A stretch of DNA of 23,977 nt from a virus. Shown here in pieces: positions 114 to 21,200 of this stretch (positions within the stretch are counted from its first letter, which is position 1; every line of letters starts with the position of its first letter). A program made the translations under genes and the position numbers. Where the stretch lies: the IMG/VR virus record IMGVR_UViG_3300042402_004112, positions 1-23,977 of that record. The stretch is one strand, 5' to 3'. The notes under the pieces are model-generated. The model did no database searches, was not told the DNA's origin, and saw nothing but the letters and a program-made list of their open reading frames with translations.

Positions 114-1001
114 ATGCAAAACAAACACCTTGAACACCCCGAAGATGCCATCCTCACGGGCGACCTTGATGTGCTGGACTGGTTTGTTAATCCTGGCGCT
201 CTCAGCGTCAAGATTGATGGCGCTCCCGCTATTGTTTGGGGAACAAACCCCGCCAATGGTAAGTTCTTCGTTGGCACCAAAAGTGTCTTCAACAAAGTAA
301 AGATTAAGATCAACCACACACACGATGAGATCAATCAAAACCACGTGGGTCGTGTCGCAGAAATTCTGCACAAGTGTCTTGATTGGTTGCCTCGCACTGA
401 GCGTATTATCCAAGGTGACTTCATCGGGTTCGGCGGATCGGATGAATACAAACCCAACACCATCACCTATAAGTTCCCAGAGGTAATCACTGAGGAGATT
501 ATCATTGCCCCTCACACAGTGTATGAGGCAAACGATGACCTGCGCGATAGTTGGGCACTGCCACTGATGGTGAACCTGGACAGCACTGATGCCTGCCTGT
601 TCGTGAAACCTGATGCTTACATTGCTCACAATCAAACCTCATTCGCTGATGTTGAGGAGGTGTGCAAGTTCGCCCGCCAAATGTCAACCACTTGTGAGTT
701 CGTTGATGGTAAGCAACTGGCAGAACTGAAAAAGCAACTTAACGCTTGCATCCGCGAGCAACGCCCCGTTGAGGATGATGCCTTTGATTGTGATCCTAAC
801 CTGATTCGCTTGTGGAAACTGGTCAAGAGCATTAAGGAGGATTGCCTATTCCTGCTGCGCAATGATGGACCTGAAGCATACATCAATGGTGAGCGTATCG
901 TTGGTGAAGGTTACGTAATGACCAATGAGTTTGGTATGTTTAAACTCGTGAATCGTGAAGTTTTCAGTTATTACAACTTCACTCTTGCAAAGACCTGGTG
1001 A
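114..1001 (+). CDS. Putative covalent nucleotidyltransferase (RNA/DNA ligase-like)
   Basis: A 295-residue protein with ligase-superfamily motifs in the expected order. Motif I is KIDG at 33-36, where Lys33 would be the adenylated lysine. A GDFIGFG segment at 101-107 sits where motif III would be, EGYVM at 265-269 matches motif IV (EGxV), and FKLVNR at 276-281 is motif V-like. The length fits a bare nucleotidyltransferase domain without an added DNA-binding domain. The start is chosen because HLEHPED at the N-terminus recalls the conserved opening of a phage family usually annotated only as hypothetical. No Shine-Dalgarno is visible. Hand-counted GC in one 60-nt line is 43%, between the GC-rich genes to the right and the AT-rich late genes. 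The substrate (RNA, DNA or something else) cannot be told. A degenerate, non-catalytic member is possible, since motif V lacks the usual KxK. Confidence 0.65.
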   Translation: MQNKHLEHPEDAILTGDLDVLDWFVNPGALSVKIDGAPAIVWGTNPANGKFFVGTKSVFNKVKIKINHTHDEINQNHVGRVAEILHKCLDWLPRTERIIQGDFIGFGGSDEYKPNTITYKFPEVITEEIIIAPHTVYEANDDLRDSWALPLMVNLDSTDACLFVKPDAYIAHNQTSFADVEEVCKFARQMSTTCEFVDGKQLAELKKQLNACIREQRPVEDDAFDCDPNLIRLWKLVKSIKEDCLFLLRNDGPEAYINGERIVGEGYVMTNEFGMFKLVNREVFSYYNFTLAKTW

Positions 1002-1014
1002 CAATCGCTGAGGT

Positions 1015-1048
1015 GGCACAGAGGCGCTTGTGGGTGCCTCTCCGTGCC
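1015..1048 (+). terminator. GC-rich hairpin between ligase-like gene and next promoter
   Basis: GGCAC (1015-1019) and AGAGGC (1020-1025) pair with GCCTCT (1036-1041) and GTGCC (1044-1048), with a CC bulge. The structure ends one base before the TATACT box at 1050. There is no T run, so termination is uncertain. It may be a weak terminator, an mRNA 3'-end stabiliser, or a structure that insulates the next promoter. Confidence 0.5.
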
Positions 1049-1055
1049 CTATACT
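1028..1055 (+). promoter_or_regulatory. Promoter of TATACTGAT type
   Basis: TATACT (1050-1055) is followed by GAT, as in the units at 1521, 1836 and 2736. TTGTGG (1028-1033) lies 16 nt upstream as a possible -35 box, inside the loop and stem of the hairpin at 1015-1048. The ATG at 1078 is 22 nt downstream. Confidence 0.55.
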
Positions 1056-1077
1056 GATTCTGTTGAGAGGAACCCCA

Positions 1078-1206
1078 ATGTTTGACGAACTGTGGCAAGA
1101 GATCCAGGACATGCCTGGTGAGATCTTCGACCTTGACATTCCCGAACTGAAGGATGATGAATCCTTCAACATGAACGACTACCTCGCTGCTGACTATGAC
1201 TTCTGA
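1078..1206 (+). CDS. Small acidic hypothetical protein
   Basis: A 42-residue acidic protein starting MFDELWQEIQDMPG and ending ADYDF. It is one of few genes in the left block with a visible Shine-Dalgarno (GAGAGGA, about 7 nt before the ATG). A promoter-like TATACTGAT box precedes it by 22 nt. Its last 11 nt overlap the start of the next gene, which suggests translational coupling. There is no recognisable domain. The strongly acidic make-up is common among small phage proteins that bind host factors, but that role is only a guess. Confidence 0.6.
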   Translation: MFDELWQEIQDMPGEIFDLDIPELKDDESFNMNDYLAADYDF

Positions 1207-1351
1207 GACCTTCACCTCTTTCACTCAGGATGAGATCCGTGCTCTGCTGGAACTGATTGAATTCCACGACGACTGGGATGAGGTAAGCGAGCACCTGGGC
1301 GTTGACCTTGCCCAACTCTATGATAAAGTAGCAGCACTCCAAACCTTCTGA
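1196..1351 (+). CDS. Small acidic hypothetical protein
   Basis: A 51-residue protein beginning MTSETFTSFTQDEIRALLEL, with predicted helical character in the middle (EIRALLELIEFHDDWDEVSEHL). The ATG lies inside the last codons of the preceding gene in another frame (11-nt overlap), so it is probably translated by coupling from the 1078 message, and no separate promoter is visible. The family is not recognised. The pattern HDDWDEVSEHLGVDLAQLYDKV could be a short helix-turn-helix-like fold, but this is not supported beyond its look. Confidence 0.55.
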   Translation: MTSETFTSFTQDEIRALLELIEFHDDWDEVSEHLGVDLAQLYDKVAALQTF

Positions 1352-1358
1352 CTCACTG

Positions 1359-1502
1359 ATGCGCTCCATCCTTCCCCTTGGTTTCCTTGCCATCTCCCTC
1401 TGGGTTGGTGGCAACGTCCTATCAGCAGGCGCTCAGATCACCAAAGCAAACGCCGACCGCCTGGCAGTGGCAATGTGTGAAATGTCACAGGACTGCCGCT
1501 AA
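1359..1502 (+). CDS. Small secreted or membrane-anchored peptide
   Basis: A 47-residue protein. The N-terminus has one Arg and then a hydrophobic stretch (ILPLGFLAISLWVGGNVLSAGA, about residues 4-25), consistent with a signal peptide or a single membrane anchor. The short C-terminal part contains two cysteines (CEMSQDC) near the end, which could form a disulfide if exported. It begins 7 nt after the previous stop, so it is likely the third gene of the 1078 transcript. No family is recognised. It could act at the host membrane, but the role is unknown. Confidence 0.5.
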   Translation: MRSILPLGFLAISLWVGGNVLSAGAQITKANADRLAVAMCEMSQDCR

Positions 1503-1515
1503 GCACCCCACCTGA

Positions 1516-1538
1516 CCCCTTATACTGATCTCAGTTCA
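1516..1538 (+). promoter_or_regulatory. TATACTGAT promoter with dyad operator
   Basis: The -10-like TATACT (1521-1526) overlaps a perfect inverted repeat, ACTGA (1524-1528), TC, TCAGT (1531-1535). The whole 23-nt element is identical to 2731-2753. No convincing -35 box lies 16-18 nt upstream. The start codon at 1550 is 23 nt after the -10 box. The dyad covers the expected transcription start, where a repressor or activator could act. Confidence 0.6.
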
Positions 1539-1549
1539 CAGGACACCCC

Positions 1550-1795
1550 ATGATCGTTCAACAGATCGGCAGCAACATGACCGAGGTGATGCTGGCAGAT
1601 GGCACTGAGGTCCTGATCTCATATGTGACCCCCGTCGCTGCCCGCATCCCTGGTCGGGGATGGGTCCGCACTGCCCACAAGTGGAGCGCCACCACATCAA
1701 AGCACATTAACCGCTGGTTGACCGATAAGATCGGTCGGACCGATTGTGTACCTGCTGTTGATCAGTGGGAGATCGACCAACTGATCGCCTTCTGA
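1550..1795 (+). CDS. Conserved short cyanophage protein
   Basis: An 81-residue protein. The central part (TPVAARIPGRGWVRT, about residues 26-40) and the following segment KWSATTSKHINRWLTDK resemble a short family found repeatedly in marine T4-like cyanophages, normally annotated as a domain of unknown function. The fold appears to be mostly beta with a C-terminal helix. It is preceded by a strong TATACTGAT promoter-like element. Its stop is followed within 2 nt by the recurring GTGGCACA octamer and a hairpin, so it is probably a single-gene transcript. The biochemical role is unknown. Confidence 0.7.
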   Translation: MIVQQIGSNMTEVMLADGTEVLISYVTPVAARIPGRGWVRTAHKWSATTSKHINRWLTDKIGRTDCVPAVDQWEIDQLIAF

Positions 1796-1805
1796 AGTGG
1801 CACAG

Positions 1806-1823
1806 GGGGGACTCTGATCCCCC
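1806..1823 (+). terminator. GC-rich hairpin downstream of the 1550 gene
   Basis: GGGGGA (1806-1811) pairs with TCCCCC (1818-1823) around the loop CTCTGA. It lies 10 nt after a stop codon and 12 nt before the next TATACT box. There is no T run. The position and shape match the hairpins at 1015-1048 and 2716-2735, so it is probably part of a terminator-promoter module. Confidence 0.5.
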
Positions 1824-1835
1824 ACCTTGACCCCC

Positions 1836-1852
1836 TATACTGATTCAAGTTC
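1836..1852 (+). promoter_or_regulatory. TATACTGAT promoter, variant dyad
   Basis: TATACT (1836-1841) followed by GAT and then TCAAGTTCA, a variant of the dyad seen at 1524-1535. The ATG at 1864 lies 22 nt downstream. TTGACC occurs at 1827, but only 3 nt from the -10 box, so it cannot serve as the -35 element. Confidence 0.55.
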
Positions 1853-1863
1853 AAACGAAACCA

Positions 1864-2022
1864 ATGCGCTACGACGTGATCTGCCCCTCCGCTCCCTGGG
1901 AGAACACCACCACCGATGCGGATCGCGCCTGGGATCTGTGCCTGTCCCTCAGTGAGGAGTATGGGTACGCCCAGGTTCGCCAGAATGGCATGATCATCGG
2001 AGACTACACTGAGGGGCGCTGA
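1864..2022 (+). CDS. Small hypothetical protein
   Basis: A 52-residue protein, MRYDVICPSAPWENTTTDAD onward, ending with a short beta-like segment (YAQVRQNGMIIGDYTEGR). The sequence reads like a compact alpha/beta domain: an opening strand, a helix (DADRAWDLCLSLSEEYG) and a closing beta-hairpin. This is typical of tiny early phage proteins. Hand-counted GC in its first 60-nt line is 65%. There is no Shine-Dalgarno (leader ends ACGAAACCA). It has its own promoter-like box and is followed by another, so it is probably monocistronic. The function is not recognised. Confidence 0.6.
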   Translation: MRYDVICPSAPWENTTTDADRAWDLCLSLSEEYGYAQVRQNGMIIGDYTEGR

Positions 2023-2031
2023 CCCCCTCCC

Positions 2032-2046
2032 CTGATCTGCTACAAT
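2032..2046 (+). promoter_or_regulatory. Extended -10 promoter
   Basis: TGC directly before TACAAT (2041-2046) forms an extended -10 box (TGnTACAAT), which normally works without a -35 box. The 15-nt string CTGATCTGCTACAAT is identical at 3009-3023. The ATG at 2070 is 23 nt downstream. Confidence 0.6.
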
Positions 2047-2069
2047 TGCTCAGAACCCCCACGCCTCTG

Positions 2070-2249
2070 ATGCTGATCCGCACTCCTCGCTTCATTGAAC
2101 CGATCTTCTACGCTGCCATCGACCCCCGTGCCCGTATCCGTGATGAGGCAGCAGCAGTGAGCATCGGCAACCGCTATCTGGGCATCTACCGCACCCCTAA
2201 CGGGTTTGAGGTTGCCTGGGGCATCCTAAACGCTCAAGGCGCCCTCTGA
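2070..2249 (+). CDS. Small hypothetical protein
   Basis: A 59-residue protein starting MLIRTPRFIEPIFYAAIDPR. A TTG in the same frame at 2046 would add eight residues, but it lies inside the TACAAT box, so the ATG at 2070 is preferred. A mid segment (IRDEAAAVSIGNRYLGIYRTPNGFEVAWGIL) suggests a helix followed by a beta-hairpin. No domain is recognised. It is GC-rich, without a Shine-Dalgarno. Its TGA stop (2247-2249) also provides the TGn of the next extended -10 box. Confidence 0.6.
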   Translation: MLIRTPRFIEPIFYAAIDPRARIRDEAAAVSIGNRYLGIYRTPNGFEVAWGILNAQGAL

Positions 2250-2255
2250 CACAAT
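2247..2255 (+). promoter_or_regulatory. Extended -10-like box overlapping a stop codon
   Basis: TGA followed by CACAAT (2250-2255) resembles TGnTACAAT with one mismatch. The TGA is the stop codon of the preceding gene. The next ATG (2313) is 57 nt away, a longer leader than for the other units, so this call is weaker. Confidence 0.35.
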
Positions 2256-2312
2256 GGGAACGGCAGCGCCCCAAAAAGACTCCGCCAAACAACCACACTA
2301 CAAACGATTCCA

Positions 2313-2456
2313 ATGTCCCGCGAACTTGCTCTGTCCCTCCTGCGCTCTGGCAACACTGGCGATCAGATCCTACAGATCCTGGAGACCATCAGCAACCCCG
2401 AAACCGACAATGGTATGACAATCGCTGAACCGACCCTCGATGCCCTGGAGTTCTGA
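2313..2456 (+). CDS. Small hypothetical protein
   Basis: A 47-residue protein, MSRELALSLLRSGNTGDQIL onward. The N-terminal part is strongly helical (SRELALSLLRSGNTGDQILQILETI) and the C-terminal part is acidic. Short proteins with this opening (MSRE-x-ALSLLR-G-x-GD-x-ILQIL) are familiar from T4-like marine cyanophages, without an assigned function. The leader (ACGATTCCA) has no Shine-Dalgarno. A promoter-like TAGACTGAT unit follows right after its stop. Confidence 0.6.
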   Translation: MSRELALSLLRSGNTGDQILQILETISNPETDNGMTIAEPTLDALEF

Positions 2457-2467
2457 TCCTGACCCTG

Positions 2468-2482
2468 TAGACTGATCTCAGT
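2468..2482 (+). promoter_or_regulatory. TAGACTGAT promoter with dyad operator
   Basis: TAGACT (2468-2473) with the perfect inverted repeat ACTGA (2471-2475), TC, TCAGT (2478-2482), the same as at 1524-1535 and 2739-2750. The ATG at 2498 is 24 nt after the box. It shares GACCCTGTAGA with the unit before the gene at 3672. Confidence 0.55.
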
Positions 2483-2497
2483 TCACAAGCGAACCCG

Positions 2498-2701
2498 ATG
2501 GCAACCCTGACCCTCACCCTGGACCTCTACAAGCATCAGGCACTGCTGGATGCCCTGAAGGACAGCGAGCGCAACTGGAGGGACATGCACTTTGATGCCT
2601 CCACTGGCAAGCGCCCTGGAATGTCGCCTGAGGGTGCTAAGATGATCATCGACGACCTGGTGGACCTGATCAATCAGGTCAAGTGCCAATCGGTGGACTG
2701 A
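2498..2701 (+). CDS. Small hypothetical helical protein
   Basis: A 67-residue protein. It opens with a beta strand (MATLTLTLDLYKHQALLDAL), continues with a helix containing ERNW, and ends with an amphipathic helix (GAKMIIDDLVDLINQV). The pattern of an N-terminal LTLDLYKHQALLDAL followed by a helical C-terminus recurs in short proteins of marine cyanophages, with no known role. It is GC-rich, without a clear Shine-Dalgarno. It has its own promoter-like unit and is followed by a hairpin, so it is probably a single-gene transcript. Confidence 0.6.
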   Translation: MATLTLTLDLYKHQALLDALKDSERNWRDMHFDASTGKRPGMSPEGAKMIIDDLVDLINQVKCQSVD

Positions 2702-2715
2702 CCACCAGGACCTAT

Positions 2716-2735
2716 AGGGGGCACTCCCGCCCCCT
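2716..2735 (+). terminator. GC-rich hairpin abutting a promoter
   Basis: AGGGGGC (2716-2722) pairs with GCCCCCT (2729-2735) around ACTCCC. The 3' arm ends exactly at the first base of TATACT (2736). It lacks a T run. It may terminate the 2498 transcript weakly or tune the promoter that touches it. Confidence 0.5.
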
Positions 2736-2753
2736 TATACTGATCTCAGTTCA
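2731..2753 (+). promoter_or_regulatory. TATACTGAT promoter with dyad operator
   Basis: TATACT (2736-2741) overlaps the inverted repeat ACTGA (2739-2743), TC, TCAGT (2746-2750). The 23-nt block is identical to 1516-1538. The ATG at 2770 lies 28 nt after the -10 box. Confidence 0.6.
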
Positions 2754-2769
2754 AACGCCACCGCCCCCC

Positions 2770-3012
2770 ATGTTCATCGGTTACCCCATCACCACTCACG
2801 GCAGCACCGCGATTGAGACCCTGACCGTCAACCCCATCACGGGTCAGGTTCAGGTCAAGTTCCTCTGGGGCGGTCGCTATACCTACAAAGGCATCTCCCG
2901 CCGCGCGATCCTGGACCTGATGGCAAACACCGACTGCTCGCTCGGTCAGTGGGTCAACCGCCACTGCCTCCAACGCCACATCACTGTGACGCCTGGTCTG
3001 CTGATGAACTGA
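2770..3012 (+). CDS. KTSC-domain protein
   Basis: An 80-residue protein. Residues about 10-70 follow the KTSC pattern: a Ser followed by a beta-rich part (AIETLTVNPITGQVQVKF), a Gly-rich turn, then an aromatic strand (RYTYKGISRRAILDLM) and the closing SLGQWVNRHC, which corresponds to the usual GxYFNxxI segment. KTSC is a short domain of bacteria and phages, found alone or fused to Lys-tRNA synthetase-like and other proteins. Its role is not settled. The ATG at 2770 is preferred over an upstream in-frame start at 2683, which would overlap the previous gene and cross the promoter. Its stop TGA (3010-3012) lies within the next promoter element. Confidence 0.7.
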   Translation: MFIGYPITTHGSTAIETLTVNPITGQVQVKFLWGGRYTYKGISRRAILDLMANTDCSLGQWVNRHCLQRHITVTPGLLMN

Positions 3013-3023
3013 TCTGCTACAAT
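3009..3023 (+). promoter_or_regulatory. Extended -10 promoter overlapping a stop codon
   Basis: TGC plus TACAAT (3018-3023), a 15-nt identity with 2032-2046. The stop TGA of the KTSC gene (3010-3012) is part of the shared string. The ATG at 3045 is 21 nt downstream. The leader carries GCAACCGA (3034-3041). Confidence 0.6.
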
Positions 3024-3044
3024 ACTCACAACCGCAACCGACCG

Positions 3045-3392
3045 ATGCTGCTCACCTCTGGACAAAAGCAACGCCCCCGCCTCGCTCAGCAGGTCTACCG
3101 CTTCATGCTGGATCAGGAACCGCTGCTGGGGGCCGCGGCGATCACGGTTCACCATAAGCGCCTGACCTCTGAGGGTGTGGTGGGTTGGCAGCAGCAGGAA
3201 GACGATCTGGACTTTCTGGTTGAGGTTGAGCGGGAACTGCCCCACCTGGAATACGTCACGACGCTGATCCACGAACTGATCCACTGCCGCCAATCGCTGG
3301 AGGGCAACCACGACGACGAATCCCGTGAGGAGGAAGCATACCGCCTGGAGCAGGTCTACTCCGACCGCTACTGCGCCTGGTGCGCCGTCTGA
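3045..3392 (+). CDS. Small HExxH metallopeptidase-like protein
   Basis: A 115-residue protein with a clear zinc-binding HELIH (residues 76-80) preceded by a hydrophobic helix (VTTLI). An acidic, Ala-containing helix follows, REEEAYRLE (residues 94-102), which could supply the third zinc ligand (Glu95-97), as in small gluzincin or ImmA/SprT-like peptidases. The first 60 residues contain no recognised domain. The protein is shorter than most ImmA-type enzymes, so it would be a minimal domain. The frame is open from 2949, but the ATG at 3045 is chosen because it sits 21 nt after an extended -10 box. It is GC-rich (57% in one hand-counted line). The target is unknown, and cleavage of a host regulator is conceivable. 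A non-catalytic metal-binding role cannot be excluded. Confidence 0.65.
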   Translation: MLLTSGQKQRPRLAQQVYRFMLDQEPLLGAAAITVHHKRLTSEGVVGWQQQEDDLDFLVEVERELPHLEYVTTLIHELIHCRQSLEGNHDDESREEEAYRLEQVYSDRYCAWCAV

Positions 3393-3405
3393 TCTGTGGT
3401 ACAAT
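3390..3405 (+). promoter_or_regulatory. Extended -10 promoter overlapping a stop codon
   Basis: TGG directly before TACAAT (3400-3405). The stop TGA of the peptidase-like gene (3390-3392) begins the same TGATCTG string that precedes the boxes at 2041 and 3018. The ATG at 3431 is 25 nt downstream. Confidence 0.55.
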
Positions 3406-3430
3406 TATCAAGCAACCGACAGACGCACCG

Positions 3431-3622
3431 ATGACCTGCTCCACCTTCCCCGCCCTGATCGCTGAAATCACCAACCCTGAGAACGGCACCATCTATTGGA
3501 TTGAAGCGGCATACGCTGCCAAGCAGCACGGTCTGTGGGATGACTTCCGCACCGACTACGGCACGACATCTGACTTCGGCGGGGTCGACGCTGGTGAGTT
3601 CCTGGTGTGGTTGGGGTATTGA
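3431..3622 (+). CDS. Small hypothetical protein
   Basis: A 63-residue protein, MTCSTFPALIAEITNPENG onward, with many aromatic residues (YWIEAAYAAKQHGLWDDF) and a C-terminal GEFLVWLGY. Helix content looks high in the middle. The frame extends upstream to 3380, but the ATG at 3431 lies 25 nt downstream of a TACAAT box and is preferred. No Shine-Dalgarno. The leader contains GCAACCGA (3412-3419), shared with three neighbours. The protein family is not recognised with certainty, though small aromatic proteins of this type are frequent in marine cyanophages. Confidence 0.6.
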   Translation: MTCSTFPALIAEITNPENGTIYWIEAAYAAKQHGLWDDFRTDYGTTSDFGGVDAGEFLVWLGY

Positions 3623-3640
3623 CCCCTGCCCCTCTGACCC

Positions 3641-3648
3641 TGTAGAAT
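3641..3648 (+). promoter_or_regulatory. Promoter-like TAGAAT box
   Basis: TAGAAT (3643-3648) preceded by TG. The surrounding GACCCTGTAGA matches the unit at 2461-2471. The ATG at 3672 is 23 nt downstream, the same spacing as the other units. Confidence 0.45.
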
Positions 3649-3671
3649 TCCAAAGCAACCGACAGGCACCC

Positions 3672-3839
3672 ATGACCCGCTTCCCCCTCGCTATGTGCTC
3701 TGACCTTCAGACCCGCCAGATCAAGTGGATCTCACGCCATGATCAACTGAAGAACGGATCACGCCCTTCTCAGTTCGTTCACTGGGGAGTGCCTGCTACC
3801 GCCATCGCCGCCCAGTACTCTGAGGCACACCAGCGGTAA
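3672..3839 (+). CDS. Small basic hypothetical protein
   Basis: A 55-residue protein, MTRFPLAMCSDLQTRQIKWI onward, fairly basic in its first two thirds (SRHDQLKNGSRPSQ), ending VPATAIAAQYSEAHQR. The frame is open upstream to 3501, but that would overlap the previous gene on a different frame and skip the promoter, so the ATG at 3672 is preferred. The leader has GCAACCGA (3655-3662) and no Shine-Dalgarno. No domain is recognised. A nucleic-acid-binding role is possible from charge only. Confidence 0.55.
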   Translation: MTRFPLAMCSDLQTRQIKWISRHDQLKNGSRPSQFVHWGVPATAIAAQYSEAHQR

Positions 3840-3886: not shown

Positions 3887-4078
3887 ATGACCACCGCAAC
3901 CATCGACGGCATCCAATACAAGGTCACCCGCCTTCGCCCTGCTCATGGTTCTGCCGCTAACCGTTGGACAGATCGCATCAAGGGAGGCAGCACTCGGGTC
4001 AGAACTCATGGGGGTGCAGCAGGATCTCATGGCACTCGTATGAGCAGTGCCAACTCTGCCCTGCAGGATGTGCGGTGA
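3887..4078 (+). CDS. Small basic Gly/Ser-rich hypothetical protein
   Basis: A 63-residue protein, basic and rich in Gly, Ser, Arg and His in its C-terminal half (RIKGGSTRVRTHGGAAGSHG). The first part (MTTATIDGIQYKVTRLRPAH) reads as a beta-hairpin. It is the last gene of the GC-rich block. The leader has a run of nine A residues and then GCAACCGA (3874-3881), 5 nt before the ATG. No clear -10 box is seen 20-30 nt upstream, so it may share the transcript of the 3672 gene. The family is unknown and it may bind nucleic acid. Confidence 0.5.
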   Translation: MTTATIDGIQYKVTRLRPAHGSAANRWTDRIKGGSTRVRTHGGAAGSHGTRMSSANSALQDVR

Positions 4079-9291: not shown

Positions 9292-12200
9292 ATGCAAAAC
9301 ACAAGAATTAAACTTTCCACAGTACTTGAGAACCTGCTCCCAGGTTTTATAAAAGAATCTTTTCCTCTTGTAGAAGAATTTTTTAAAGAATATTACAATT
9401 CTTTAGAGGGTAGAGGATTAACTCTTGATGTTTTGCAGAACATAGATCAGTATCTAAAAATAGACAATATTTCAAATCTTGATGAGGATATATTATTAGA
9501 ACAAGAATTGTCAGTTTTTGAGACTGATATTACAGTATCTGGCGGATTTAAACTACCAAATACTTATGGGGTTATTCAAATTGATGATGAAATAATTTTA
9601 TACAAATCAAAAAAATACAATATTGGTACTAATACACATACCCTAAAGGATTGTTATAGGGGTTTTAGTGGGATAACAAGTTTTAGGGAAGATACCAAGG
9701 ATGATTATCTTGAATTTAAATCCTCACAAATAGACTCACACAATATTAATTCGCAAGTTAAAAATCTATCAAACTCAATTCTTTCCGAATTCTTTAAGAA
9801 GGTTAAAATTCAGTTTGCTCCAGGATTTGAAAATGAATCTTTATATAAAGATTTGGATCAAAATTTGTTCATAAAACAAATAAGAGATTTTTATACAACT
9901 AAAGGAACAGATGAGTCCTTTAGAATTTTATTTAAAGCGTTGTATAATGAAAAAGTTGAAATAATTAAACCCCAAGATTTTCTTCTTATTCCATCAAATT
10001 CAGAATATAGAATATCTAAGAATTTTGTAGTAGAGGAGATATCTGGGGATATTACAAAGATAGAAGGAAGAACAATCTATCAAGAAAAAACAGAAATATC
10101 AGATGTTGCTTCAGCAGTTGTAAATAGAGTTCAATTAATAGAAAGAAACGGCAAGAAATTTTATATCCTTAGTGTCGATTTTGATTATGATAGGGATATT
10201 AATGTAAGGGGAACTACATTTGGTTCATTTATAATTGGACCAAAAACTACCATTACGAAAACAGTAAACCTTGGGGATTTTAATATTTGCGTTGACTCTA
10301 CTGTTGGTTTTCCAAAAACACCTTCAGAACTTCTCGTTAAGATAGATGAAAATATAAGTTACACCACTTTTTATGGACTTACAAATAATAATCAATTTTT
10401 ATCAACAACTCCTTTCCCATCGGTTTTAAATCCTGGAACAGAAGTATATTATAATAAGTTTTGTAAGTCATCATATCTTGACGATGATGATAATGAGAAT
10501 GAAGTATTGTTTAGAATAACTGGAGTTTTGAGTGACCTTGAAATTGGAGAAACTTTCAACTTAATTGAAAATTCTTCAGTTCAATTTAAAACTCTAGGAA
10601 AATCTGAAGAAGATAACTTTTTAGCTAATAATTGGATTTTTAATCTACCAGTATTATATGATATAAAATCTATAACATTGAGCAATGTCTCTTCTGGTAC
10701 ATATGTCTATAATGTAGAAGTATACAATAAAAATATTTTAAAAACTGGAGATTTGATAACTTTAATTTCATCAACTCCGACAACATATAACATAGATTTA
10801 CCAATAACAGTTAATGGTGATTATACATTTATATTTTCTTACTCTCCAGAAGAAGGTGAACCACCACTAAATTTAAACCTAACATATAAAGTAAGAAGAA
10901 ATATTAAAAATTTCAAATATTTTGTAGATTCTTTGGCAACAATTGATAATGATATTTACAACTCAGATGTTCAGAATGTATATTATGGAAAAAATAGCGA
11001 TGAAATTTATATTGCAACAAACTCTATACCAAATTATAGAAATGATTCCATCAATCCAAAAAGTTCTTTAGTTAATTTAATATTCAATTCTAGAGTAATT
11101 GAAGTTGATAATCCAATAAATTCATCATTAAAAGATAAAGTCTTAGATTTTGGATCACAAAACCCACACCCATTTATAACTGGAGATGAAATTTTCTACT
11201 CTGTTGGGTCAGATTCATTTGGAGCGGGATTAAATTTAAATCAAAATACTCCATACTACGTTAAAAAAATAAATGATACACAAATTAAAATTGCTGTATC
11301 AAGATCAAATATTAATACAGAAAGTTATTTTGATTTAAAAATTACCGAAGATTCCAATGAAGGTGCGTTTTTTGATAAAGGACATAGGATCGGAAAATTC
11401 TTACCAAGATCAATCATAGATCTGGATGGTAAGATTGTTGCTCAAGGAATTCTTGATTATAATCCAATTGTAAGAAAGATACAAAAACCAGTAAAAGATG
11501 AAAATTCATATGAGACAAAAATTGGACAAACTGGAATCTTTATAAATGGAACAGAATTAACAAACTATAAATCATCTGATAAATTTTATTACAATAAGAT
11601 ACAATCTATTACTCCAATCTCATCTGGAATTAATTATGATGTAATAAATTCACCCCAACTCGTAATAACAGATAGTGAGGGATCTGGCTGTCAAGCTTAT
11701 CCAATAATTAGTGGTAAATTATCAGATTTTAGAGTATTACAAAATGCCTTTAATTATTTGGAAATTCCGACTATCCAAATATCTGGAGGAAATGGATCTG
11801 GCGCTGATACTAAGGTAATTTTAGAATCATACGAATACTCTGTAAATTTTGATTCTTCTCCTACTTCTGGACTAATAAATTTAACAACTGGAACAATAGG
11901 TTTTAGTACAAATCATAATTTTTATGATGGTGAGGAAGTATTTTATGAATTAAAACCAGGAGCATTTCCTATAAGTGGATTGGAGGAAAGTGCAAAATAC
12001 TATGTTGGGGTGATAAGTCCACAGTCTTTGAGATTGTATTCAAATAAAACAGATTCCCTTAGAAAGTTAAATCAAGTAATATTCAGTGATTTTGGAGTTG
12101 GCACAAATTCATTAAGGTCTTCAGAATTAAAAAATAAAATAAATTCCATAACAATACTTTCTGGTGGGTCAAACTACTCAAATAAGAAAGTTTTTGTAGA

Positions 12201-15200
12201 CCCAGTAGGAATTAATACATTTTCAAATGCTATAACTTGCCCAGATCTACATAGATTTTCAAATAATGAAAAGGTAGTATACAGAAATTTGGGATCTTCT
12301 ATTTCAGGTCTTAGTACTAATATAAGTTATTTTGTTAATGTAATTGATAATTTCTCATTTTTCCTATCAACTAGCGTAAATTCTTATGCGGTAAATCTTA
12401 ATAGCATTGGTGTAGGAACTCATATTTTTCAGTATGAACCAATAACTGTAAAAATTGTAGGAAAAACACAAAATAACCAGGAAGCAAATATAGATCCAAT
12501 ATTCAGAGGTGAAATAGAATCTGTATATGTGTACAAGAATGGTACAAAATATGGATCTAAAGAAATTGTAAATTATAAGAAACTTCCAGAATATCAATTA
12601 GTAACTGGAAATTTTGCCCAGTTAACTCCAATTATTATTAATGGTAAAATTGAAAAGGTTATAGTTAATAATCCAGGAAAGGACTATTATTCAATCCCAG
12701 ATATTCAAGTTATTGGTGATGGAAACTTTGCGAAGTTGATCCCCATACTCCAAAACAATAGAATTATTGATGTTTTAATTTTAAACACAGGAAGTGGATA
12801 CTCTCAATCTGCAACTTCACTAATCGTAAAATCTGCGGGAAGTGGTGCAAATTTGGGAATTAATCTTCAAGAGTGGACAATAAACGAGGTTGAAAGATAC
12901 TTATCATCGTTGAATAAAGTTCAATCCGGAAATTTAACAGATTCTAGTGATTCATTCTTATCAAAAGGTTTGGTAGGTTTAAAGTATTCTCACCTATATC
13001 CACCAAGAAAACTAAGAGAAATATTAATAACTAAACAAATTGAAGGTGATCAAATTTCATATTCTAGAGATTTGGTCAGAAATAATGGGCAGGAAGTTAA
13101 TTCAAATATACACTCACCAATAATTGGATGGGCATATGATGGAAATCCAATTTATGGTCCATATGGATATGAATTCAAGGATGGAAGTGGTAGAATTAAA
13201 AGAATGGTTTCTGGATATAGAAAAATACAATCATCCGAAAGACCAAACTTTCCTGATGGATTTTTCGTAGAAGATTATGAGTATATTGGGTTTGAGAAAA
13301 CGCCAGATGCTGTAGCAAATTCTGATATTGTTCTAGATAAGTATAACGGTAGATTCTGCGTTACCCCAGAATATCCAAATGGAGTTTATGCATATTTCTG
13401 TACAATAGAAGAAACTGTTTTTGCTGATTTTTCGAATTATAGGAAACCACAGTTTCCGTATGTGATAGGAAATTTTTATCATTCTAAACCTATTGATTTT
13501 AATTTTGATTTTAATTCAAAGCAAAGTTTTATTGATATTAATTCAACAAATTGGATTAGAAATACATATCCCTATAATTTACAAGAATCGCATAGTAGAT
13601 ATGAATTTTTAGATTCTAAATTGAAAAAAGGAAATCTTTCAAAAATTATCTCCACTAAAAAGGGAGTAGTAGATAATATTGAAATTTTTTCTTCTGGAGA
13701 TAATTACACCGTAGGTGATCAAGTAATATTTGACACAAATGAGGGCCCTACATCTAAAGGGGCTTCAGCGATAGTTTCTGAAGTTGAGGGAAGAGAAGTT
13801 CTTAAAGTAAATCTTGATACTGAGACTACTCTTGATAATTTAGAATTTTACTTTTTACCTAAAGCAAGCAGTGGTCCTGGAGTTGTTTTAGGAATAACTT
13901 CATTTACCCACAAATTAGTTGATCAAACTGAAGTTCTAATTTCCGGAATGAAAGATTATTTAAATAATGAAAAAGATGATTTTATTGGAAAATTAATTTC
14001 AATAAAATCAAGTCAATTGGTGTTATCTTCAGATTTAGATACAGTTTCTAATACTGGTTTACAAACTTTCATCTATGTTGTTGGAAATTTAGATTTTCCA
14101 AATATTAAAGAAAATGATATTTTTGATATTGCTGATATAGAAAAAATAAAAGTTTTAAGAGTTGATAAATCACAATCCAGATTGTGGGTACTAAGAAATT
14201 ATAATGGATCTGGTGGTTTGGATAACCGTTTTAATAGTGGAACAATACTATTTGAAGATTCTTCTAAGTTTGAGTTTAGTGGATCTCTTATTCAGAATAG
14301 AGATTATAATATTCCTAGAACTCTTTATTTTAATCCCAATGAATCTTTGGGATTGGGAGTAACATTCTCATATAATCAAGAATATGGAACAACCATAACT
14401 TTTTCAAATCCAGGAGTTGGAGATACTCAAATTTTTGTAAGAACTCAACAAATATATTTGCCAAATCATGGATTATCAAATGGAACAAGGTTAATTTATT
14501 CATCCGAGGGATCAAATCCAATATCAATTTCAACTGACGGAGTTTCTTCTGGTCAACTTTTGGATAAAACTTTGGTTTATACAACTGTTTTCAATCCAAA
14601 CTTTATTGGAATATCAACAGTTCCCGTTGGAATATCTACATTAACTGGATTATATCAAAGTCCAAATTCTAGTGTTGGATTATTGTATTTTACAAATCCT
14701 GGAACCGGAAATGTTCACAGTTTTACGGCAAATAGTTTTGCCAAAAACAAAGGTAATATTTCAAACAATATTATAAAGGTAACACTAAAGGAAGAGCATA
14801 ATTTAAATAAATTTGATTCTATTAGATTAGAAATATTCTCCGGTATAGGAGTAACTCATAAAGCGTATTACAATAACGCAAACAGAAGAATTGTATTTAA
14901 TAAAAAATCTTTCACATCTTCAAATGTTTCTGTTGAAAATAATTTAATTAACATCGTTAATCATGGATACTATAGTGGACAAAAAGTAATATACAAATCT
15001 TCAACTCCAGGTAATTTTACTGACGATAAAATTTATTATGTTTTTGTATCGGACTTTGATAATATTGGACTCTCCCAAAATTATTCAGATTCAATTTCAT
15101 TTATACCAAATTTGATTAATATAACTTCCGCTGTGGGTGGTGAGTTATATTCAATAAATCCAAAAATTGAAGTTGAAAGAAATCAAACAGTAACTTTTGA

Positions 15201-18200
15201 TCTTTCAGATAGTTCATTGGCATTTACTAGAAATGGTGAATCATATCCAGCATTTAAATTGAATTTCTACAAAGATAATAATTTTTCAGATTTATTAGAA
15301 AGCACTGAAGGATTTAAAGGTTATAATATTTCTGGATTCGGAACTGTTGGAATAACAAGTACATCTAATGTATCTTTTACAATAAACGATCTTTGGCCAG
15401 AAACTGTTTATTATAAGTTTGATATTGACAATGTAAGTATTATTCCAGATCAAAAAAGAGGATTAGTTGTTGATAATGAAGTAGTCGGATTCAATCAATT
15501 ATCAATTCTAAAAAACAAATATAGTGATTCATATAGTATCATTGGAATTGCCACCACATCCTTTAATATTTCATCCAAACAAATTTCAAAACCATTTGAA
15601 TATAATGAAAACAATTCTTCAATAAAATATTATTTAAGATCAATTTCAGATTCTGGAAAAATATCATCTATAACAATAAAGGACAGAGGTTTAGGTTATA
15701 AGTCCTTACCAGGAATATCATCTGTTAGTTCAAAAAATGATGAAATCAGAATTACACCAATTTTGTTTAGTTCAAGTAAATCAATTGGTGAAGTTAATAA
15801 AATAGACATTAAAAATATAGGATCTGATTTTTACTGCGATAATAGTTTAAGACCTACAGCAAAACTTCCTGAATTACTAAAACTAGAACCTTTTAGTTCT
15901 TTTGATAAAATTGATGTAACTTATTCCGGTAAAAATTACATATTACCACCAAAGTTAATTGTTTTTGATGGATTAACTGATGAATTGGCAGAAGAGGTTA
16001 GTTTAGAATATAATCTTGAAGATTCTACTGTCAATATTCTAAAAAATAGTAATGGTTTATATAACAAAACACCAAGAATAGTTCCAACAAGTAATACCAA
16101 TGGCGTAAGTATAAAAAATATTTCTTATAATCCTTCAAACAGTGATGTTACCGTATTTTTAAATGTAGGATTTTCCCTTAATTCTAATCCATTCCCATTT
16201 GGAGTTGGAGATAAAATTTTAATAGAGAATGTAAGTGTTGGTATAGGAACAGAGAATTCTTTAGGTGAATTTGAATTTATTCAAACTGGTAAAGGGTATG
16301 ATTCGAAAGAATATAACTATGATTTATTCACAATAAAGAGTGTTGACGAAAATTATGGTGGAACAGGGTCAGTCACCTTTAACATCAAAAATTTCTTGAA
16401 AAATAGCGAAGTTCCTGGAACTTTTAACGATGAATTTTCACAATCAGCAATTGTTGTTCCGGAAAAATATTTCCCAGTTTTTGATATAAAACTCAAAAAG
16501 AATTCCTATATTTTAGGAGAAACTGTAGAAACTGAGTCTTCAAGTGGAGTTGTTGAGAACTGGGATCCAGTAAATGAAATTCTAACAGTATCTACAATAG
16601 ATACTTTTAAGGAAAATCAAATTATCACCGGAAATACAACATCATCTACAGCAACCATAACAAGAGTTACCAGTTTTGATGTAACATACGTAGTTGGTTC
16701 TTCTGCAGTTGTCAATGAAAAGTGGCAAAATGAAAGTGGATTCTTAAATAATTCTTTCCAAAAAACTCCCGATAATGATTATTATCAATATTTTTCATAC
16801 TCATTGAAAAGTAAAAAGCAATTTGCTGAGTGGGAAAGTTCTGTAAGTAAGTTAAATCATATTGCCGGATTTAAAAAATTTGCTGATTTATCTGTAGAAT
16901 CTGAACTTGAAACTGCAGATCGTATTGTTCCAGACTTACCATTAGTTTCCGAATTTTCTGTAGTTTCCGATTTTATCGAATTTATTGATCTAAATTGTTA
17001 TAACTATTTTGACATTGTTTCCGAAAATACATACTTACTTTCAAATATTATAGTTTCCGATGAAGTAACATTCGAAAATAATGAAATTCAAGATTACATA
17101 GAATCTATAGGAAACAGAGTTCTTTTAATAGATGATATAAGCCCACAATTCAATAATAGTCCAAGAAGTACTCCATACAGTATTGTTGATACATTTGATA
17201 TTTTATCAACAAACTATAAAAAATATTTTGCATATGTTAAAGATAAAAGATTTGGGGTAGATAGACAATTCTCAATCATATCTTTAATTAATGATGACAA
17301 TTCTGGATTTGTAAATGAGTATGGAACTGTAGACTCTTATTATCAACTCGGAAGTTTTGATTTTTCAGTCTCCGAAGAAATTGGAAATTTGGAATTTTAT
17401 CCAGTAAACTTCCAAGCAAATGACTTTGATGTATCTCTAGTATCATTTGATTTACTTAGCGATTCTATAGGTATTTCCACACAAAATATAGGAAACATAG
17501 CATCAATAATATCAAATACAAAACAAGTTTCTGCTGGAATAGGAACAACTACAGTTTCTATTGTTGGAATTTCATCAACCAATAGAACTTCAAAAATACT
17601 TATTTCTCTAAAGTCTGATGATGAAACTTTAGTTGAATGTAATGAATTAACCATCATGGTAGATAATGTCTATAATCCTATTATTTTGGATTATGGTCAT
17701 CTATCTAATAATAATTCAGCATCAATTTTGAATACCGGAAGTTATAATGTATATTATGACAGTCCAACACAAAAGATTTTGGTTGATTTGACAGCAAATG
17801 TTTCAATATCTTCAACAATTAAAGTTACAACAACTTCAATATCACTTTCTTCCACTGGAACAGCATCTTCAGAGTCTGTTTTAGATAATTCAAAGGTATT
17901 TTCATCTTTCTGTGGAATAGCATCTACTTCATCACCGGGAATAACTACAATTTCATCCTATCCGCTTTCTTATGCTGCTTCATATCACATAGTTTCGATT
18001 GCGGATACTATTGGTAATAGATATCAAACTTCAGAAGTTAATCTTTTGAATGATGGAAGTGAGGGTTATATCGTTGAGTATGGAACACTACAAAGTGGGG
18101 ATACCTTATGCTCTTTTGGATCTACAATAGTAGGATCAAATGTTTCTTTATGCGTAACTCCAATAGCAAATACCTCTCTTGAGGTTAGGGTCTTTACACT

Positions 18201-21200
18201 TTCACAAGGATTAAGAAATCCATTAATTAGTGATAATGTTATTGAAATTGGAAATTCTTCTATAAATTCTTCCGAAGGTGAATATTTTGGTACGGAAAGG
18301 GAAATTACGAAGGATTTTGAACTTTTATATGAAGATAATCCAATATTTGAAAGAGTTTTTGATGGCACTGATAATGCAGTAATCAATTTGGTTGATGACC
18401 AATTTGACTTCAATTTCCACTACTTTAATAGTGGTGAAGAAATTTCATATGATTTTACTTTTGGATCACCAATAGGAATTGCAACTACGACTATTTCTGG
18501 AATAGGAACTACTGATAAATTGCCATCAAAGTTGTTTGTAGTAAAAATTAATGAAAGGTCAATTCAGGTAGCGGCAACTGCGGAAGAGTCTTTGAGATTT
18601 AGTCCAAATGTTTTATCATTAACTTCTGTCGGAATTGGAACAGTTCACAAATTAACATCAACATATCAAAATAACAAATCTCTAATTTGTTTGGATAATA
18701 TAGTTCAAACTCCGATTGTTTCCACTTCTTCAACAACTATACTTTCTTCTAATATAGAAATTAGAGATGTTAAAATTGAAGTTAATGATCCTACAGATTT
18801 TATTGCCGCAGATTTTGTAAAAATTGACAATGAAATTCTAAAAATTAGAGCGGTTGGAATTGGCAGCACAAATACGTTATTGGTGGATAGAAATGTTCTG
18901 GGAAGCAACATATCAACACACTCATCAAACTCTCTAGTCACAAAAATCTCCGGAAATTATAATATTGTTGGAAATAGAGTTTACTTCCAAGATCCTCCAT
19001 ATGGTAAAATACCAGAAAGTGATCCAAATGGATCTCCGGATAATTTTGATTGGACTGGAATATCTTCAAGTTCAAGTTTCCATGGAAGAGTATTTTTAAG
19101 AAATTCTGCAATAGGTTCTACTCAAGAAACATATACTACAAACTACATATTTGATGATATTTCCAATCAATTTACAGGTATAAAAGAAGAATTTATATTG
19201 AAAGTTGGTGGCCAAAATGCAACTGGTCTATCGACGAGTAATGTTGTAGTTCTGATAAAGGATATATTCCAAATACCACAAAAAACTGAAATATTTGATC
19301 CTAGAGGAAATTATAGAGTTGTTGGAACTTCACAAACAACAACATTGTTATTTGATAAATTGGGAACAGAACAAAATCCAATTGATATCAATGTAACAAA
19401 TATTCCGGTTGGTGGAGTAATTGTATCTGTTTCATCTACAGGTGGATTTGGATATCAACCTCTCATTGCTGCCGGTGCTACTGCTGTAGTCTCCTCATCT
19501 GGAACTATCCAAGGTCTTGTGATTGGAAACACTGGTTCTGGATATAGAAAATCCTCAAAATATGAAGTTACAACAAAGGTAAGTCAATCGGTTAGTGCTG
19601 GATCGACAACTATTTTTATTGATGATAGAAATTCAGTATTTAAAAAACTTCAATATTCCAATAGCAATACTATCAGTATTGGATCTGCAATTAAAAATCA
19701 ATCTATTGTAGGATTTGGTACAAATTATGTTCTAATTGGAACTGGATCAACTGTTAATGTTGCCATAGCTAATACAACTAGCGTAACAGTATCTCTGAAT
19801 AATCCAAAATCTTCTTTAATTGATATTGGAATAGTTACTTCAAGATCTTTAGTAAAACCCACACATCTTGGATTCACAACTTCAGTTGGTGGATATATCT
19901 CAAGCGATATTAATATAACAAATCCAGGTTCTTCTTATACCAATTTCCCAACAAAATATACTACAACCACCTCTTCAATAGTTTCAATAGGTAGCACTGT
20001 TATTCCACTAACATCCTTAAGTGGTATAGTTGTTGGTGATTATATTGGAATAGGGACTCTTATTCAGCTAGCGGAAATTGTTGGGATTGGATCAACATCG
20101 GTTTTAGTATCAACATCAAGCACATCATCGTATCAAATAGCATCATCAACATCGGTAAAAATCAAAGAATTTGCCCCACCAGTAATTATTTTCGAGTCTC
20201 CCCTCCCCTATTCAAATATACCATTAAAATATAGTGCGAGTTCACCAAGTGGTGTGGGGATTGGAACAAATGCTTACATTAATATTGAAATGGGTCAAGA
20301 TAGAATACTAGAGTTTGATCTATCTAATTCCGGAAGTGGATATAAAAAAGGAGATATTTTAACAGTATCGACTGATGTTGATAATTTGTTGGGAATTTCA
20401 ACAGATCCATCAAAATCTTTTGTAGAATTCAAAATTACTGTAGACCAAATTTATAATGATAAGTTTTCCGCATGGTCCGTTGGTGATATTGATATCTTAG
20501 ATCCTTTTGATGAATTATTTGATGGATCTAGAACTAGATTTTCATTGAAATTGGACGGTAGCACTGTAGCAATTCGATCAGTAAAGGGATCAAATATCGA
20601 TATTCAATCAACATTATTAATTGTAATCAATGATGTAATACAAATTCCAGGAGAATCTTATACTTTTACTGGCGGTAGCACCATAAGATTTAAAGAAGCT
20701 CCAAAATTTGGAGATAAGTCTTACATTTTATTCTATAAAGGAACATCTTCAGTAGATACCGCATTTATTGATATACTAGAAACTATAAAAATTGGGGACG
20801 ATATTATAATTACCAGTGATGATATCAATCTGAAACAGAAAAAAAGAGGAATTTCTAATATAATATCATCAGACCGCGCTTTAACCACTTTATATTCTGG
20901 AGTTGGTATAAATTCATCTGTTTCTAGACCTGTTATTTGGTGTAAGCAAACCGAGGATAGAATTATAAATGGTAATAAAATCTTTAAAGACAGAGATTCT
21001 TATGAACCACTAATTACACCGTCAACAAATATTATACAAACAGTTGGAATTGGTTCTACAGAAATATTTGTTGAATCTATTCGCAATTTATTCAATTCCG
21101 AAAAAGAAAACACATTATCAAGTTATACCAATAAAATAGAAATAACATCAGCAAATGTTTTAGTTTCAGCATCGGCAACATGTAATGTATCATCTTCCGG

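Follow-up and report, generated by a model that had tools for sequence, protein, structure and literature searches.

The stretch of DNA analysed here (the window) comprises positions 1–23,977 (23,977 bases) of IMG/VR record IMGVR_UViG_3300042402_004112. Near its left end is a tandem array of 13 small genes, most of them preceded by a -10-like box and some also by a palindrome further upstream; these putative promoters, and the palindrome in particular, are the subject of what follows. The array occupies the hypervariable region just upstream of gp25 in a T4-like cyanophage (Kyanoviridae). A DUF6267 protein and the baseplate genes gp25 and gp6 are also encoded in the window, and the flanks of the array match T4-like cyanophages at the DNA level; among named phages, the array itself has no DNA match. 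Its G+C content is 53–60%, vs. 28–44% past approximately position 4000.

Nine boxes can be recognized: TATACT at 1050, 1521, 1836, and 2736; TACAAT at 2041, 3018, and 3400; TAGACT at 2468; and TAGAAT at 3643. For all nine, 21–28 nucleotides (nt) separate the end of the box from the following ATG (those at 1078 and 3044 included). These positions and gaps were correctly given in a preliminary description of this DNA, as were the predicted protein lengths of 42–115 amino acids (aa); its "nearly fixed spacing" holds for the distance from box to ATG, but not for that from gene to gene. The promoters and genes of the array, with matches to the promoter profile R1 and with comparisons to the related loci L010, L055, and L167, are:

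999–1020 (+), palindrome of the promoter at 1050, TGACAATC-GCTG-AGGTGGCACA, overlapping the stop of the preceding gene; profile R1 998–1058, E 3.8e-7
1050–1055 (+), -10 box of the same promoter, TATACT
1078–1206 (+), small gene, 42 aa; 64 of the fetched loci have homologs
1196–1351 (+), small gene, 51 aa, overlapping the preceding gene and without a box of its own; weak Myb/HTH-like match, below cut-off
1359–1502 (+), small gene, 47 aa, without a convincing box of its own
1468–1489 (+), palindrome of the promoter at 1521, TGGCAATG-TGTG-AAATGTCACA, within the preceding gene; profile R1 1466–1540, E 7.8e-15
1521–1538 (+), core promoter (-10 and initially transcribed region), TATACTGATCTCAGTTCA; this core occurs unchanged in at least 119 viral contigs
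1550–1795 (+), small gene, 81 aa, phrog_5643
1782–1804 (+), palindrome of the promoter at 1836, TGATCGCC-TTCTG-AAGTGGCACA, overlapping the preceding stop; profile R1 1786–1855, E 3.8e-13
1806–1823 (+), G+C-rich stem-loop between this palindrome and its -10, GGGGG-ACTCTGAT-CCCCC
1836–1853 (+), core promoter, TATACTGATTCAAGTTCA; exact junction to a different gene in L010/L055
1864–2022 (+), small gene, 52 aa; entire cassette missing in L010/L055
2038–2046 (+), extended -10 promoter, TGC-TACAAT, without a palindrome
2070–2249 (+), small gene, 59 aa; the L010/L167 homolog has a palindrome-type promoter instead
2313–2456 (+), small gene, 47 aa, without a box of its own; 73 of the fetched loci have homologs
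2416–2437 (+), palindrome of the promoter at 2468, TGACAATC-GCTG-AACCGACCCT, within gene 2313–2456; profile R1 2413–2487, E 3.2e-12
2468–2485 (+), core promoter, TAGACTGATCTCAGTTCA
2498–2701 (+), small gene, 67 aa
2684–2705 (+), palindrome of the promoter at 2736, TGCCAATC-GGTG-GACTGACCAC; profile R1 2682–2755, E 3.7e-15
2717–2734 (+), stem-loop ahead of the -10, GGGGGC-ACTCCC-GCCCCC
2736–2753 (+), core promoter, TATACTGATCTCAGTTCA
2770–3012 (+), small gene, 80 aa, phrog_7365; KTSC-like match below cut-off
3015–3023 (+), extended -10 promoter, TGC-TACAAT; one-cassette insertion here in L010/L055, flanked by CTGATCTGCTACAATACTC repeats
3044–3392 (+), gene, 115 aa; HELIH motif, weak metallopeptidase/SprT-like matches
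3397–3405 (+), extended -10 promoter, TGG-TACAAT
3431–3622 (+), small gene, 63 aa; entire cassette missing in L010/L055
3619–3648 (+), promoter, TTGACC-18-TAGAAT, the only one in the window with a fair -35
3672–3839 (+), small gene, 55 aa; homolog in the S-PM2 array
3887–4078 (+), small gene, 63 aa, the last in the array, without a box

Between positions 1001 and 4100, TANANT hexamers occur 11 times on the plus strand, nine of them before gene starts, and once on the minus strand. Ten gene starts have one 15–35 nt upstream (one of these being an internal TAAAGT before 1359). Under a first-order Markov null, the mean of this count was 0.25 and its maximum 3, with none of 5000 simulations reaching 10; circular shifts of the real boxes reach the observed count in 14 of 3100 cases.

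The pattern TANACTGATYTCAGTTCA is found in at least 119 IMG/VR stretches, with two to six exact copies in several contigs, and the same promoter-leader is present in the isolates S-PM2 and S-SRM01. With a looser definition of a cassette (box, start-site region, ATG, and an open reading frame (ORF) of at least 30 aa), 533 promoter-gene cassettes were collected from 121 sources, against one in a reversed-sequence control; none of these sources has two or more cassettes on both strands. The median protein is 63 aa long, and the median distance from box end to ATG is 23 nt (5–95%: 21–28). Since the sources were selected by motif, homologs of gene 1550, which keeps the same promoter behind differing upstream genes, were gathered by protein alone: 23 of 28 have a TANANT at the expected distance, against a background of 6%, and in the remaining five a variant box (CATACT or TATTCT, for example) is visible together with the palindrome.

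The promoters take two main forms. Those at 1050, 1521, 1836, 2468, and 2736 have the upstream palindrome, and a profile R1 search of the window returns exactly these five palindrome-type promoters (E 3.7e-15 to 3.8e-7); those at 2041, 3018, and 3400 have the TGn directly before the -10 that characterizes extended -10 sigma70 promoters. The box at 3643 has neither, but does have a TTGACC 18 nt upstream. Across the promoter collection, unsupervised motif discovery in the sequence preceding the boxes gave the palindrome consensus TG(A/C)CAGTT-N4-AACTG(G/T)CACA, recovered in 84% of TATACT-class and ~46% of TACAAT-class promoters, with a log-likelihood of 1181 vs. at most 117 in shuffled controls. 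In 64 of 68 neighbouring-family pairs (one example each), it ends 30.3 ± 0.8 nt before the -10, so that its centre is ~42 nt upstream of the -10, or about -54 from the start site. This distance is the same whether the upstream gene stops ~14 or ~41 nt ahead of the box; the distance from the upstream stop varies widely (standard deviation 29.5), and all reading frames of the upstream gene are used. The palindrome is therefore part of the downstream promoter. Paired positions in its arms do not covary within sequences, and it thus behaves as a DNA site rather than an RNA hairpin.

The two forms nearly exclude each other: a TGn precedes the -10 in 6 of 141 promoters with the palindrome vs. 73 of 125 without (odds ratio 0.03, P 6e-24). 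In neither group of the collection is there a clear -35 signal, the best match to a TTGACA-like hexamer 16–18 nt before the -10 averaging 2.4 of 6 positions with the palindrome and 2.7 without; a host-type sigma70 promoter with a -35 is thus not what is found, the exception in the window being 3643. These two alternative stand-ins for a -35 are the strongest sequence evidence that the elements are promoters, and suggest that the palindrome aids the polymerase. A search of 146 cyanobacterial genomes for the full promoter gave one borderline partial match (E 0.008), under stricter filters by which weak matches can be lost; the protein that binds the palindrome is therefore probably phage-encoded. 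About half of these promoters (51%, at z below -1.5) have a predicted stable stem-loop, in most cases with no T-run. The leaders are T-poor and A/C-rich; genome-specific leader words were considered and set aside, the effect being weak (6.2% vs. 3.2% expected).

Cultured phages carry the same elements. S-PM2 has seven exact-type sites on one strand at 21.5–24.6 kb, with boxes at 21542, 21799, 22069, 22984, 24098, 24313, and 24583; as in the window, they lie shortly before gp25. Two more are found in the rest of its 196 kb. Profile R1 finds 16 sites in S-PM2 (mostly at 5–24.6 kb, with two near cobS), 14 in S-SRM01, and 26 in one IMG/VR genome; matches are weak or few in S-CRM01, Syn9, P-SSM2, S-SM2, S-SKS1, and S-CAM7, and no site was found in DSL-LC02, also one of the Kyanoviridae. 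Nor was the promoter found in the T7-like cyanophages S-CBP3, S-CBP4, and S-TIP37, which have homologous genes. S-SRM01 and S-CRM01 share the architecture, and many isolate sites (including some in S-PM2 and S-SRM01) retain the palindrome and a TATAAT without CAGTTCA, which makes the array promoter look like a specialised version of a wider early-region promoter. At 128835–146138 of the S-CRM01 record (L276), a different box, GTTATGCTAGCTAAGTG-like, comes after the palindrome, in some cases ahead of tRNA genes; this is possibly a variant of the same promoter. In S-PM2 (L153, NC_006820), the public annotation of 20600–24900 misses or mis-strands array genes: p067 (21656–21928) and p070 (23768–23974) are annotated on the strand opposite to that of the promoter-gene cassettes predicted there (minus rather than plus), and the annotated start of p056 seems too early.

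The cassettes fall into 103 families, and their 246 adjacent pairs include 140 different ordered family pairs. Fifteen family pairs are found both as A-C and as A-B-C. Between arrays, starts of homology blocks are 12-fold above expectation in the 10 nt before the -10 box and depleted inside genes, in a comparison whose pairs are not independent and in which the conserved core alone pulls block ends to its edge. L010 and L055 are 94–99% identical to the window and differ from it by exactly three whole cassettes. The gene 1864 unit is missing, with the junction at the promoter core, and the next gene (2070) has a palindrome-type promoter in place of an extended -10; a unit with a 57-aa ORF is inserted at 3012–3030, with direct CTGATCTGCTACAATACTC repeats flanking it; and the gene 3431 unit is missing, with the junction within the shared leader AAGCAACCGACAG. 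All three junctions are thus in promoter or leader sequence. The earlier suggestion that units may be gained or lost one by one is strongly supported by these differences and by the 15 family pairs; shuffling of cassettes, with gain and loss of single units at the putative promoters, is evident from sequence comparison.

Several known systems resemble this arrangement. PeSLs, the promoter-early stem-loop cassettes reported for T4-type phages (Arbiol et al., 2010; Comeau et al., 2014), have a promoter and stem-loop between small genes in a plastic region with modular shuffling. Promoters between consecutive small genes are likewise found here (9 of 13 window genes; 533 cassettes), as is shuffling of adjacent genes, with junctions in promoters and gain or loss of single units. 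PeSLs are reported to have a T4-type early promoter with -35 and -10, whereas no -35 signal is found at palindrome-type promoters, the -35 being replaced in the array by the palindrome or an extended -10; in addition, array stem-loops are found in only about half of the units, and the unit is nearly always one gene. PeSLs have been sought in S-PM2, with few found and the mechanism judged unlikely (PMC4503421); the array at 21.5–24.6 kb contradicts this judgement for that region. The preliminary comparison to T4-like early gene clusters was apt, except that the promoters of S-PM2 and other T4-like cyanophages are of a different type.

In Cluster K mycobacteriophages, short conserved elements (SAS/ESAS) precede many small non-structural gene starts, about half with an imperfect inverted repeat upstream, and ESAS have putative promoters (PMC3203893, PMC11373665). 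Unlike the array element, SAS lie 3–9 nt from the start codon and are apparently translational, and ESAS have both -35 and -10; the 13-bp SAS GGGATAGGAGCCC near the start codon was not found in array leaders, and no sequence relation of SAS/ESAS to the array element was noticed. T4 middle promoters resemble the palindrome type in having a -10 without a -35 and an upstream activator site, but theirs is a single MotA box centred near -30, which was not found; the conserved upstream element here is the palindrome ~42 nt before the -10, near -54. The motA and asiA genes are reported absent from T4-like cyanophages (PMC5780444, citing Doron, 2016). Halovirus HF2 (PMC8707807) also has repeated intergenic promoter elements within one genome, but it is an archaeal virus with archaeal promoter elements of unrelated sequence.

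The boxes, the palindrome with its fixed spacing, and the two alternative forms, all recovered by sequence comparison, point to a reading that we consider probable: the block would be a series of mobile expression cassettes, each with a single gene, arranged in tandem in a T4-like cyanophage, PeSL-like but with a new regulatory site. Each cassette would consist of a -35-less sigma70-type promoter, a T-poor leader of ~20 nt, and one small gene, with many adding a stem-loop that would terminate the previous transcript. The -10 would be read by the host RNA polymerase holoenzyme, and the -35 contact would be replaced either by a dimeric activator on the palindrome or by the extended -10. Promoter cores and leaders, being repeated along the array, could serve as short homologies for recombination, by which units would be gained, lost, and re-sorted; junctions would then fall in promoters, leaving genes intact. 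With a -10 and leader for each unit and stem-loops in about half, separate transcription is plausible. Early timing is suggested by the S-PM2 anti-restriction protein, the left-end homologs in T7-like phages (described below), and the sigma70-type boxes; activation by the palindrome's binder and host-takeover roles for array genes may likewise be supposed.

Some points weigh against this reading. Four of the 13 genes (1196, 1359, 2313, and 3887) have no convincing box, which brings the promoter count to nine; the preliminary claim of a promoter before nearly each gene stands as a sequence pattern, motif-blind sample included, but fails for these four. Transcription itself is predicted from the sequence pattern, and the activator is putative; with stem-loops in about half the promoters, mostly lacking a T-run, read-through is likely. 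The totals of 533 cassettes and 121 sources, being motif-gathered, are no estimate of prevalence; related contigs are not independent, and dereplicated tests retain shared ancestry.

The element could instead be mainly a recombination and translation-leader module, like the start-associated sequences, in one or a few long transcripts, with the CAGTTCA leader and box maintained by recombination or translation and not by transcription. Leader words shared across unrelated genes, junctions located in the element, and the half of the promoters without stem-loops would all fit; but a perfect -10 hexamer at fixed spacing, a TGn where the palindrome is lacking, and a palindrome at -30 from the box form a pattern expected of promoters, not of leaders, and at the S-PM2 and S-SRM01 sites it is the palindrome and TATAAT that are retained, not CAGTTCA, so we regard this as quite improbable. 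About as improbable is that the palindrome, instead of serving an activator, is a repressor operator that times shut-off. A repressor can bind a dyad whose place is fixed, and many copies have a palindromic core as well (ACTGA-TC-TCAGT); but activation agrees better with a site near -54, which is upstream of the core of the polymerase footprint, with the loss of the -35, and with the mutual exclusion between palindrome and extended -10. That the palindrome serves the upstream gene as an RNA hairpin or as a terminator was rejected as highly improbable: Nostocales do have similar palindromes at gene 3′ ends, but here paired positions show no within-sequence covariation, the position is tied to the downstream -10 and not the upstream stop, and the palindrome often lies inside upstream coding sequence.

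A binding site for a host regulator, coupling phage early genes to a host signal, is conceivable but unlikely. Host PhoB binds S-PM2d promoters (PMC10976474) and NtcA sites are reported in cyanophages (PMC3037559), and with at most one mismatch the palindrome is enriched in cyanobacteria (~38 matches, many counted on both strands, vs. one in the control). However, the host sites checked are mostly at gene 3′ ends, e.g., between purH and a convergent Mn-catalase gene, and so resemble terminator hairpins; small genomes of picocyanobacterial size are nearly without the palindrome at one mismatch, and show no enrichment at two (hand tally of 65 genomes: 121 vs. 112 in the control); and the 146 genomes lack the full promoter, apart from the one borderline match. 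In four filamentous cyanobacteria (L223, L231, L239, and L257), a phage-like palindrome lies just after purH, adjoining the convergent Mn-catalase gene in three. A phage-encoded binder thus fits better than a host regulator. That a phage-encoded or virion-delivered dimeric activator, near -54, recruits host RNA polymerase to -35-less promoters across the early/middle region, with the arrays as plug-in cassettes for new anti-host genes, is a tentative proposal, to which we would give somewhat less than an even chance.

Function prediction left nearly all array genes without assignment, and a search of them against a defence-system library gave no match. The exceptions among array genes and their relatives are an anti-restriction protein (S-PM2p068; phrog_36653), S-adenosylmethionine decarboxylase, and GP88, with weak matches only for KTSC, HTH, and metallopeptidase; the product of 3044–3392 is a candidate zinc protease. 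Homologs of gene 2770 are found in the S-PM2 array and at the left end of T7-like cyanophages, which is their early region. Gene 1550 (1550–1795) has homologs, 54–59% identical across the first 56 residues, in Prochlorococcus phages and also in large phages that infect Pectobacterium, Cronobacter, and Enterobacter. The first palindrome overlaps the stop codon of the DUF6267 gene (114–1001, E 7.8e-82), which immediately precedes the array. Positions 1–26 form a clear intrinsic terminator (GGGGGCATTTCTGCCCCC, then TTTTTTT), and a single 4345-aa ORF after gp6 (9292–22329) presumably encodes a giant structural protein.

The array is real and of more interest than first stated, the palindrome and the two promoter forms having been missed in the preliminary description. 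What appears to be new is a regulatory palindrome in an otherwise known kind of arrangement, mobile promoter cassettes; no earlier description of it was found in the literature searched, a scope that left out the PeSL and Syn9 transcription papers. T4-like cyanophages, which are reported to lack MotA and AsiA, are a dominant group of marine and freshwater viruses. For them, the palindrome is a concrete, widely conserved site that may bear on how genes are activated before the late phase, testable in the cultured phages S-PM2 and S-SRM01, which carry it, and its profile finds promoters and genes missed by annotation. The arrays would provide a ready catalogue of small, shuffled, and probably host-acting proteins, and near-identical relatives display how such genes are plugged in and out.

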